Origin: an uncultured Arachnia sp.
Lineage (GTDB): Bacteria; Actinomycetota; Actinomycetes; Propionibacteriales; Propionibacteriaceae
Length of the DNA: 64,000 nucleotides
Assembly: GCA_947493995.1 (NCBI GenBank)
Contig: CANLTJ010000001.1
Location: forward strand, 186,001-250,000
Direction: 5' to 3'
In this document: positions 2,890 through 7,339 of the stretch, in pieces
Layout: every line of letters starts with the position of its first letter
Position numbering within the stretch: the stretch's first letter is position 1
The notes under the pieces: model-generated
The model's database searches: none
What the model was told of the DNA's origin: nothing
The model's input: the letters and a program-made list of their open reading frames with translations, nothing else
Made by a program: the position numbers and the translations under genes

Positions 2890-3048
2890 ATGTTCTCACC
2901 AGATGATGTCACCCCAGCCCTCGCAGCGTTCCCCTACGTCGCGTACACCACCAAGTCAGTCGTCAAGAGCTCGATGGGCGGACGCCTGCTCGCGTCCCGT
3001 CCCGGGTACTGCCGCTGGCTGCCCTGGCTGTGCACACGGTGGGGGTGA
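2890..3048 (+). CDS. 52-aa Trp/Cys-rich small peptide (possible signal or bacteriocin precursor)
   Basis: ATG 2890 follows GGAGG with 5-nt spacing and the codons show high third-position GC, so this short ORF is very likely real. The N-terminal half is ordinary; a Met-Gly-Gly at about residues 29-31 resembles a double-glycine processing site; the C-terminus (PGYCRWLPWLCTRWG) has four aromatic Trp and two Cys seven residues apart, able to form a disulfide ring. It precedes the histidine kinase by 48 bp. I recognise no family and see no signal peptide. A pheromone sensed by the kinase, or a bacteriocin, are both possible; no exporter or modifying enzyme lies nearby. Confidence 0.65.
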   Translation: MFSPDDVTPALAAFPYVAYTTKSVVKSSMGGRLLASRPGYCRWLPWLCTRWG

Positions 3049-3082
3049 GGATTGCAATCAGACACCAGGGTGTTGGTGCCGT

Positions 3083-3088
3083 TATAAT
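3083..3088 (+). promoter_or_regulatory. Consensus -10 box (TATAAT), leaderless start of the kinase gene
   Basis: A perfect TATAAT ends 8 nt before ATG 3097 and no Shine-Dalgarno intervenes, so transcription should begin at or next to the start codon. It gives the kinase its own promoter, separate from that of the peptide gene just upstream. The -35 region is poor. Confidence 0.6.
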
Positions 3089-3096
3089 CAGCAAAC

Positions 3097-4284
3097 ATGA
3101 CGGAAACTGCGCGCAGATGGTCCACCGCTGGGTGGCTGGAGCCGCTGGTAAGTCTGATACTTTTCCTGTTCGCCCTCTTGATTAACCAGACCATTTATCA
3201 TCCTTGGTTTTGGGTAGTAGACATAGCAGCATGCGGCGGGGCGGCCATTTCCTACAGACGTCCTGCTGTCGGAGGGGTTCTTGTCGCATTGAGTTTGGCA
3301 TTTTGGCTGCCGCTCGAGAGCCCGATGTCCAGTGCCAGTGGGTTGTCCTTCTACGTCAACATCTTTGCAGCTGCCCGGAGAGATATCGCGTGGAAGACCC
3401 CATTGGTCATGGGACTTATGGGGCTAGGTTATTTGGCTTTGGTCAGGACGTCTATAGAATCGGCCTCTGATCGATGGGCCACCTCAGTCATCCTCCTGAT
3501 TCTCCTTGCCTTGTCGTATGGCGGCGGGGTCGCGTACCGTCGCGCTAGCCAACGCATTGAGCGCGAACGAGAAACCGGCGAGGAGCGGGTGCAGCAACTG
3601 CAGACTGCACTTGCGCGGGAGCTGCACGACAGCGTGGCGCAGACGTTGTCCAGCGCGGCCATGCGTGCCAACATCGTCATGAGCGACCCGAACCTGTCAC
3701 CGATGGCGCTCGGGCAGCTTGAGAAGATTGCAGAAGACTGCAGGTCCTCGGCGCATGACCTGCGCCAGCTTCTCGCAGCTCTGCGTGACGAACCGGATCG
3801 GACCCTGCCGCCCGGTCCCCCAGCCGACGTGGACACTCTCCGCGCCGCTGTCAACGATCAGGCCGAGCGGCTGCGCGCGGAGGGTTTCGACGTGGACGTT
3901 CACTTCGATGTCACGAAGCTGAGCGCGGCACGATGCCAGACTTTGTCCGCCATCGCAGTCGAGGTGGGAAACAACGTCGTGAAGCACGCGAAGCCCGGCA
4001 GCAGGTGCTCGTTCTCCATCCTGCAGGGCGACGAAGACGTGCTGGGCGAATTCAGCAACGAGCGCAAGGATTCCCGAGCAGCGCGGCGGGGGTTCGGCCT
4101 CACAGGCGTTCAGGAACGCCTGGCCCTGCTGAATGGCACGTCGCAGGCAATCGTGAAGGGCGGCCGGTGGATTCTGCAGGTCCGGTTACCGTTCGGCTCG
4201 GACAGCTCGGAGAGCGCCGTCAACTCGCCGCCGAACCCCACGATGTCCGAGGAGTCGATGTTCTCGAGACCCGGGACTTCCTAG
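3097..4284 (+). CDS. Sensor histidine kinase (HisKA_3 / NarL partner type)
   Basis: The 395-aa protein has four to five N-terminal transmembrane segments (residues about 12-150), then a short linker, the HisKA_3 phosphoacceptor motif (ARELHDSVAQTL, His about residue 177) and an HATPase domain with an N-box (NNVVKHA) and a G-box (GFGLTGVQER). The usual D-x-G of the G1 box is not evident (FSNERKDS). There is no large extracellular sensor domain, as is typical for kinases that sense small membrane-near ligands such as peptides. Its likely partner is the regulator at 1609. The stop codon TAG is the first three bases of the inverted-repeat element at 4282, so the tail may have been altered by insertion. 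Confidence 0.88.
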   Translation: MTETARRWSTAGWLEPLVSLILFLFALLINQTIYHPWFWVVDIAACGGAAISYRRPAVGGVLVALSLAFWLPLESPMSSASGLSFYVNIFAAARRDIAWKTPLVMGLMGLGYLALVRTSIESASDRWATSVILLILLALSYGGGVAYRRASQRIERERETGEERVQQLQTALARELHDSVAQTLSSAAMRANIVMSDPNLSPMALGQLEKIAEDCRSSAHDLRQLLAALRDEPDRTLPPGPPADVDTLRAAVNDQAERLRAEGFDVDVHFDVTKLSAARCQTLSAIAVEVGNNVVKHAKPGSRCSFSILQGDEDVLGEFSNERKDSRAARRGFGLTGVQERLALLNGTSQAIVKGGRWILQVRLPFGSDSSESAVNSPPNPTMSEESMFSRPGTS

Positions 4285-5287: not shown

Positions 5288-6532
5288 TCACCCTTGCTTG
5301 ACGAGTGGGGAGAAGTAGTTGCGGGTGAACACGAGTGCGTCAGCCAGAGCATCAATCTCCGATTTCGTGGTGTAGAGGTACGACGAGGCGCGCGTCGATG
5401 ACTGGTGGCCCAACCGACGGTGCAGCGGCCGGGCGCAATGGTGGCCACCGCGGATGGCGATGCCCCGCGAGTCCAGAACCTGCATGACGTCATGGGGATG
5501 CACATCGGCAAGGTTGAAGGAGATGGCACTCCCCCGGTCCGCCGAATCCGTGGGCCCGAGAACGGCCAGGCCATCGATGCTTGTCAGCTTGTCCAACGCA
5601 TAGGCCGTCATCGCGTTCTCGTGCTGCGCGATGGCCTCCATGCCAATCCCAGAGAGGTACCGCACGGCTGCTCCCAGTCCCGCGGCCTGCGCGATCGGGG
5701 GCGTTCCCGCCTCGAACCGATACGGAGGTGGCGCGAACGTGGAGCGCTCCATCTCCACAATCTCAATCATCTCCCCGCCGCCCAGGAACGGGGGAAGCGT
5801 CTTCAGGAGATCGTGGCGACCCCACAGCACGCCAATGCCCGTGGGCCCGCACATCTTGTGCCCGGTGAAACAGATCACGTCTGCTCCGAGGGTGGAGACG
5901 TCCGTGACCTGGTGGGGAACGGCCTGGGAGGCGTCGACGACCATCAGGGCTCCGACGTCATGCGCCTGTCGCGCGATCTCCGTGATGGGATTGTGGGTCC
6001 CCAGCACATTGGAGACGGAAGTGAGGGAGACAATCCTGGTGCGCTCGTTGATGAGCTGCTCGCGTTCGGCAGCTTCGAGATCGAGCCGACCCTCGTCGGT
6101 GACGTCGAACCACCGTAGCCGGGCACCGGTCCGTTCACAGACAAGCTGCCAGGGAACGATGTTGGAGTGGTGCTCCATGACGGAGATGACCACCTCGTCG
6201 CCGGGTTTCAGCGAGGCACCGAGTGTGTGGGCAGCCAGATTCAGCGCCTCGGAGGCGTTCTTGGTGAAGACCACCTCGTCGCCGCGTTCCGCACCGATGA
6301 ACTCCGCGACGGCGGTGCGGGCGCCCTCGAATGCCTCGGTGGCCTCCGCACCCAACATGTGCATCGCTCGGGCGACGTTGGCATTGTGCTCCGAGTAGTG
6401 CTCCGAGATTGCGTCAATGACGGCACGGGGCTTCTGCGACGTGTTGGCCGAGTCCAGGTACACGAGCGGATGCTCGCCGGATGTACGACTCAGGATCGGG
6501 AAGTCCTCGCGGATCCTCTCAACGTCAAACAC
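5288..6532 (-). CDS. sufS: Cysteine desulfurase SufS
   Basis: A PLP-dependent class V aminotransferase-fold enzyme of 414 aa that removes sulfur from cysteine. The PLP lysine lies in TGHKMCGPTG, the catalytic cysteine in GGHHCARP, and the substrate-binding HH in VMEHHSN. GTG 6532 has GGGAGG 9 nt upstream; the ORF track's start is a TTG two codons earlier (6538), too close to that site. It lies between sufC (42-bp gap) and sufU in the suf operon. Confidence 0.95.
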   Translation of the reverse strand: MFDVERIREDFPILSRTSGEHPLVYLDSANTSQKPRAVIDAISEHYSEHNANVARAMHMLGAEATEAFEGARTAVAEFIGAERGDEVVFTKNASEALNLAAHTLGASLKPGDEVVISVMEHHSNIVPWQLVCERTGARLRWFDVTDEGRLDLEAAEREQLINERTRIVSLTSVSNVLGTHNPITEIARQAHDVGALMVVDASQAVPHQVTDVSTLGADVICFTGHKMCGPTGIGVLWGRHDLLKTLPPFLGGGEMIEIVEMERSTFAPPPYRFEAGTPPIAQAAGLGAAVRYLSGIGMEAIAQHENAMTAYALDKLTSIDGLAVLGPTDSADRGSAISFNLADVHPHDVMQVLDSRGIAIRGGHHCARPLHRRLGHQSSTRASSYLYTTKSEIDALADALVFTRNYFSPLVKQG

Positions 6533-6574
6533 TCTCAATCGCCTCCCTCTCTGGATGGCGCGGTAGGGAACCGC

Positions 6575-7339
<765 letters not shown>

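Follow-up and report, generated by a model that had tools for sequence, protein, structure and literature searches.

An unannotated small gene beside a membrane sensor kinase as a candidate ring-peptide pheromone with its presumed receptor

Does a tiny unannotated open reading frame in front of a membrane histidine kinase encode a signal for that kinase? The question arose in a window of 64,000 nucleotides from an uncultured Arachnia sp. (GCA_947493995.1, contig CANLTJ010000001.1, positions 186,001 to 250,000), and positions below are those of the window. A sequence-only reading had pointed to a 52-aa ORF with a strong ribosome binding site and coding-like third positions ahead of a kinase lacking a large sensor domain, and suggested a processed, possibly cyclised peptide in a signalling system of no described family. 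The analysis used genome comparison to ask whether the gene is real, whether it is paired with the kinase elsewhere, and what the pair may do.

The segment 1600-4300 holds four genes in order. A NarL/LuxR-type response regulator of 213 aa (1609-2250, +) has Pfam matches to Response_reg (1.4e-21) and GerE (1.2e-10) and is the presumed partner of the kinase. It is followed by a 121-aa membrane protein with a GTG start on the opposite strand (2247-2612, -), in which hydropathy gives three membrane segments and which has no Pfam family. The 52-aa ORF, MFSPDDVTPALAAFPYVAYTTKSVVKSSMGGRLLASRPGYCRWLPWLCTRWG, lies at 2890-3048 (+) with a GGAGG at 2880-2884, and is divergent from the three-helix gene with a shared 277-bp intergenic region. 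The 395-aa kinase lies at 3097-4284 (+) and matches HisKA_3 (1.7e-11). Around these are ordinary genes: an ABC-F ATPase and a 2'-5' RNA ligase-like protein upstream and the SUF iron-sulfur cluster downstream, with ABC-F and SUF named from their sequences alone. No exporter, protease or bacteriocin gene adjoins the locus.

The small gene is real, and the earlier observation holds. A search of whole genomes found orthologues at E 1e-17 to 1e-20, with 65-72% identity, in three other species of the genus (genomes G033, G025 and G013; G numbers denote genomes and L numbers loci), always between the same regulator and kinase and in the same arrangement with the SUF genes. The regulator is 82-88% identical and syntenic in these three genomes and 50-61% identical in the other genus loci. 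A GGAGG stands at the same distance in all three orthologues. Substitutions fall mostly at third codon positions, and dN/dS is 0.22-0.50 overall. The leader is the more constrained part: in the closest pair (G025/G013) the C-terminal third has a dN/dS of about 1.4 against 0.11 for the leader. The alignment keeps MFSPDD.TPAL, T, K, and C...P.LC. The coordinates given by the sequence-only reading are right, as is its spacing of the two Cys (41 and 48, seven apart), but there are three Trp and not the four it counted. The embedded Met-Gly-Gly, which it took as a hint of processing, reads MQG, LRL and LRL in the orthologues, so it is not a processing signal. A scan of GTDB-220 for the peptide gave one hit (L024, a Bacteroidales MAG), which was rejected as an out-of-frame chance match inside another gene.

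The same C-terminal device was then found behind other leaders. The kinase has orthologues in 14 of 40 genomes of the genus, and in 11 of these 14 an intact small ORF sits directly upstream of the kinase and ends, within a few residues of the stop, in a hydrophobic residue followed by Cys-x3-Pro-x2..4-Cys or a similar short Cys ring, although in the more distant genomes its leader is unrelated to the window's. The endings are CKRLPWLC-HTS, CLLIPYLC-PHR (twice), CALLPWAC-R, CNIIPSLC-SRW, CRILRIAC-R and CDLFPWLGVC-QRRHKRRLR, together with the window clade's CRWLPWLC, CRYVPWLC, CNYLPWLC and CRYLPFLC. In the window itself the presumed ring, Cys41-Cys48 or CRWLPWLC, is encoded at 3010-3033 (+). Of the three remaining genomes, G016 (L060) has a broken frame in the corresponding ORF, and so does one locus of G139 in another genus (L097); in both the kinase is intact, so these may be signal-blind or listener strains, or sequencing errors. 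G029 (L059, 4931-5010) has the orthologous regulator and kinase without any ring peptide between or near them, and a second regulator of the same type lies 1.3 kb further on (6241-6831); this may be an orphan receptor or a rewired system. G002 has none directly upstream, but carries two similar small proteins with Sec-signal-like N-termini, at L064:10244-10441 (-) and L064:9855-10064 (-), ending CKYLGIFC-RK and CTYVSRFFC-KP, upstream of an ABC transporter and the regulator.

Kinase profiles found relatives in other genera of the same family. No match at E<=1e-42 was found in 395 genomes drawn from the class, other than the window's own genome, so the strict type looks confined to the family; a plasmid search with the kinase returned no match. 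Next to the kinases of the other genera lie small ORFs with the same C-terminal ring, mostly behind Sec-signal-like N-termini, for example MKNAKKLFAASAAALVLTAGIASPANAAPKSVAPAPSSGATTNANSFCLWFPWAPFCR, MKPVTMIMTLAATVVLALPAAPASAAPVTAASVSPNSPAYCLVFPILPQCRYLLN and MKSLLASIVAVAVLGSGVIPIAAIQGDSLPPWLCNLFPMFCRR. A total of 41 such precursors beside kinases of this type were catalogued family-wide. About 27 have a Sec-signal-like N-terminus, a class which rests on a simple hydrophobicity and charge rule and not on a dedicated predictor. The ring has 6 (19 precursors) or 8 (18 precursors) residues, C-x6-C or C-x8-C, in 37 of 41, Pro is at ring position 4 in 36 of 41, and the residue before the first Cys is almost always large and hydrophobic. 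For part of the set the search criterion asked for a Pro in a range of ring positions, so its presence is partly built in, but its fixed position is not. With a strict criterion, 36 ring ORFs lie in 192 kb within 1 kb of such kinases and 12 in 483 kb elsewhere, a 7.5-fold higher density near the kinases; by our reading the latter are antisense or spurious frames, except one that lies near a kinase missed by the scan. Not every kinase of the broader group has a ring peptide beside it. Searches against Pfam and NCBIfam found no model for the peptides.

What might sense such a peptide? The kinase structure was predicted with AlphaFold2 using 19 orthologues (mean pLDDT 80, pTM 0.48). The model shows six N-terminal helices (10-32, 38-51, 56-70, 80-95, 100-117 and 123-195), of which the membrane part spans about residues 10-145 and the last runs straight into the dimerisation helix, with His177 in the HisKA_3 domain and an ATPase domain behind it. 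It has no extracytoplasmic domain, in line with the sequence-only reading of a kinase lacking a large sensor domain, and its catalytic half matches DesK structures.

Among window-type loci, similarity of the ring between genomes correlates with identity of the membrane sensor (rho 0.68) more than with that of the catalytic part (0.31). With kinase-core identity partialled out the correlation with the sensor is 0.63 (Mantel p=0.00015), and it stays at 0.62 (p=0.0005) when close relatives are removed, while the reverse partial is about zero. G022 and G023 share an identical WYCLLIPYLCPHR although their leaders differ, and theirs is the highest sensor identity of all pairs (61%), above their core identity (58%). 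This is what receptor-ligand pherotypes look like. However, the same test did not replicate in the Sec-type loci, which are far more diverged: the partial rho was 0.07 for 8-residue rings, and 0.37 with n=6 and p=0.11 for 6-residue rings.

The kinase seems to have a promoter of its own. A promoter scan found TATAAT at 3083-3088 (+), 8 nt before the kinase ATG, with no ribosome binding site, giving an apparently leaderless kinase mRNA. About 11 of 19 loci checked have TANNNT 6-8 nt before the kinase start, and TAnnnT -10 boxes and leaderless mRNAs are documented as common in Propionibacterium acnes (PMC3848588). In the intergenic region between the three-helix gene and the peptide gene, the alignment of four upstream regions shows a conserved pair, AGTTGAYCC-N-GTTGT (2763-2810, +). 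In the four whole genomes this composite occurs once upstream of each peptide gene and elsewhere at only one further place, in G013. It is the natural candidate for the regulator's site, and it would give autoinduction of the peptide and of the three-helix protein, although binding is inferred from sequence alone.

Export is less well explained. Window-type precursors lack a classical signal peptide, and have instead an acidic N-terminus, a weakly hydrophobic stretch and a basic segment. Profile searches of the whole genome found neither AgrB (PF04647) nor a C39 peptidase (PF03412). Homologues of the three-helix protein occur in six loci only (window, L021, L022, L023, L096 and L148), all with window-type, non-Sec precursors, which makes it a candidate for export or processing, though an immunity or target role is equally possible. 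Immediately downstream of the kinase in G011 (L055:2862-5493), and in the equivalent place in G022 (L056), lie a small hydrophobic protein, an ABC ATPase and a roughly 530-aa protein without Pfam match, shared by both genomes, which may be a dedicated exporter or target operon.

Based on these data, the locus is likely a peptide-signalling two-component system. In this view the 52-aa precursor is exported and cut so that its C-terminal 10-14 residues (YCRWLPWLCTRWG or shorter forms in the window), closed by a Cys-Cys disulfide with Pro in the turn, are released outside the cell. The ring peptide would be bound by the six-helix membrane sensor of the neighbouring kinase, which would phosphorylate the NarL-type regulator, which in turn would act on the region between the peptide gene and the three-helix gene to give positive autoregulation and target expression. 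The sequences themselves show that the gene is real, that it is paired with the kinase, that a conserved ring follows variable leaders, that related genera have Sec-signal-like versions, that ring and sensor covary in window-type loci, that the kinase has an independent promoter, and that a nearly genome-unique conserved element lies upstream of the peptide. Export, cleavage, disulfide formation, binding and activation of the kinase by an extracellular peptide, the direction of regulation and the regulated behaviour are all inferred. Against this view stand the lack of a signal peptide in window-type precursors and of a dedicated exporter or protease gene in the window locus, the failed replication of the covariation in the Sec-type loci, and the orthologous kinase of G029 with no ring peptide nearby. 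The interpretation offered by the sequence-only reading is therefore partly supported: its core idea of a small peptide gene paired with a multi-pass kinase, in a signalling system of no described family, is strongly supported by comparative evidence that it could not see, and the absence of homologues next to kinases, which it had named as refuting, was looked for and was not what we found, but its Met-Gly-Gly hint and its four Trp are not supported.

In layout the system is closest to ComX-ComP-ComA (ComQXPA) quorum sensing of Bacillus, which shares a variable precursor of similar size (52-73 aa) with a highly variable C-terminal signal, a signal gene directly upstream of a multi-pass HisKA_3 (PF07730) kinase, a NarL/LuxR-type regulator, and a variable kinase membrane domain against a conserved core (PMC4008528). 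It is not a member. Gene maps of the window locus and its relatives show no ComQ isoprenyl transferase next to the peptide, the Trp near the C-terminus that is isoprenylated in ComX is not conserved here and is absent in several rings, the conserved feature is instead a two-Cys ring with Pro, no ComX family match was found in Pfam, the kinase has six helices instead of 8-10, and many relatives use Sec signals. Agr systems share a small precursor, a cyclic peptide signal (presumed here), a multi-pass kinase and, as far as the window-type loci go, receptor/signal covariation, but they use AgrB, which this genome lacks, a thiolactone where the ring here is presumed to be a disulfide, and an AgrC-type kinase with a LytTR regulator in place of HisKA_3 and NarL types. 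Double-glycine pheromones with C39 peptidase exporters (ComCDE, BlpC, plantaricin inducers) also have a small precursor next to a kinase/regulator pair, and some relatives of the present locus share links to bacteriocin-like genes, but the Met-Gly-Gly is not conserved, the genome has no Peptidase_C39, and the kinase and regulator classes differ. DesK/LiaS/VraS-type kinases share the HisKA_3 core, a membrane-embedded sensor without a large extracytoplasmic domain and a NarL-type partner, and DesK gives the best PDB matches, but these kinases sense membrane or envelope state and have no dedicated peptide gene. The conserved linkage of a variable small precursor with a membrane kinase and regulator is that of peptide-sensing two-component systems, and the likeness to quorum sensing, including any reporting of cell density, is by analogy.

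It is more likely than not that these pairs represent a family-wide, undescribed class of exported disulfide-ring peptide pheromones (hydrophobic-C-x3-P-x2..4-C at the C-terminus) with dedicated six-helix HisKA_3 receptors, rapidly diversifying into pherotypes, in an actinobacterial family (probably Propionibacteriaceae) in which peptide quorum sensing through two-component systems is essentially undescribed. Literature searches for a described actinobacterial or Propionibacterium peptide/kinase system found none, and a 2016 review of quorum sensing in Actinobacteria lists AI-2 as the Propionibacterium signal and, in the parts consulted, names no peptide/kinase pair for it (PMC4748050). The finding names concrete short peptides of 10-14 residues that can be synthesised and tested at once, their presumed receptors, and natural variants for specificity swaps. 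Because the precursors match no Pfam or NCBIfam family, a whole class of signals has probably been overlooked.

Of the other explanations, the one that survives best, though it is unlikely, is that the peptide is primarily antimicrobial and that the kinase and regulator sense it to switch on self-protection or its own production. Small disulfide peptides can be bacteriocins, some relatives lie beside ABC transporters and bPH_2 (bacterial PH-domain) proteins, one (G002) lies beside an aureocin-like bacteriocin, and three loci (G002, G009 and G280) sit beside bacteriocin-immunity-like genes, which leaves an antimicrobial role possible. On the other hand, no transporter, immunity or bacteriocin gene adjoins the window locus or its three closest relatives, and the ring is very small (6-8 residues) and variable, more like a recognition element. 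In G002 a separate 52-aa ORF at L064:6849-7004 (+), MALFSRLVSYAWNFGRQIVNWLWAHRNVILGWLRNGLAFDVIIDKVRRYLGI, matches aureocin-like bacteriocins (PF11758, 1.1e-8) and lies between regulator and kinase, beside genes clustering with the bPH_2 proteins of G009; it is a possible output of the signalling system, which fits a pheromone regulating it. Links of this kind in some relatives suggest a use in controlling competition.

Slightly less likely is that the peptide is not secreted but is a small membrane-associated regulator that binds the kinase within the same cell, like MgrB. If the window-type precursor spanned the membrane, its acidic N-terminus, moderately hydrophobic stretch and basic segment before the ring would by the positive-inside rule leave the ring in the cytoplasm. 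However, its hydrophobicity is low for a membrane span, relatives carry Sec-signal-like N-termini with the ring on the outer side, and the ring sits at the extreme C-terminus with an unconserved middle. A Trp- or Cys-rich leader or attenuator peptide, suggested by the position of the ORF 48 nt upstream of the kinase and its three Trp codons, was rejected as very unlikely, as Trp is not conserved (CLLIPYLC, CNIIPSLC), the kinase has its own -10 element, and in other genera the peptide gene is on the opposite strand or downstream.

One further small gene was seen near a related kinase. In G235, a Cys-rich 52-aa ORF without Pfam match at L176:1968-2123 (-), MSLLKSIARQVFGVQTARAGCPTDCWTETRSDGKQRRCCDRPDCTTHCTAWA, may be a modified-peptide precursor.
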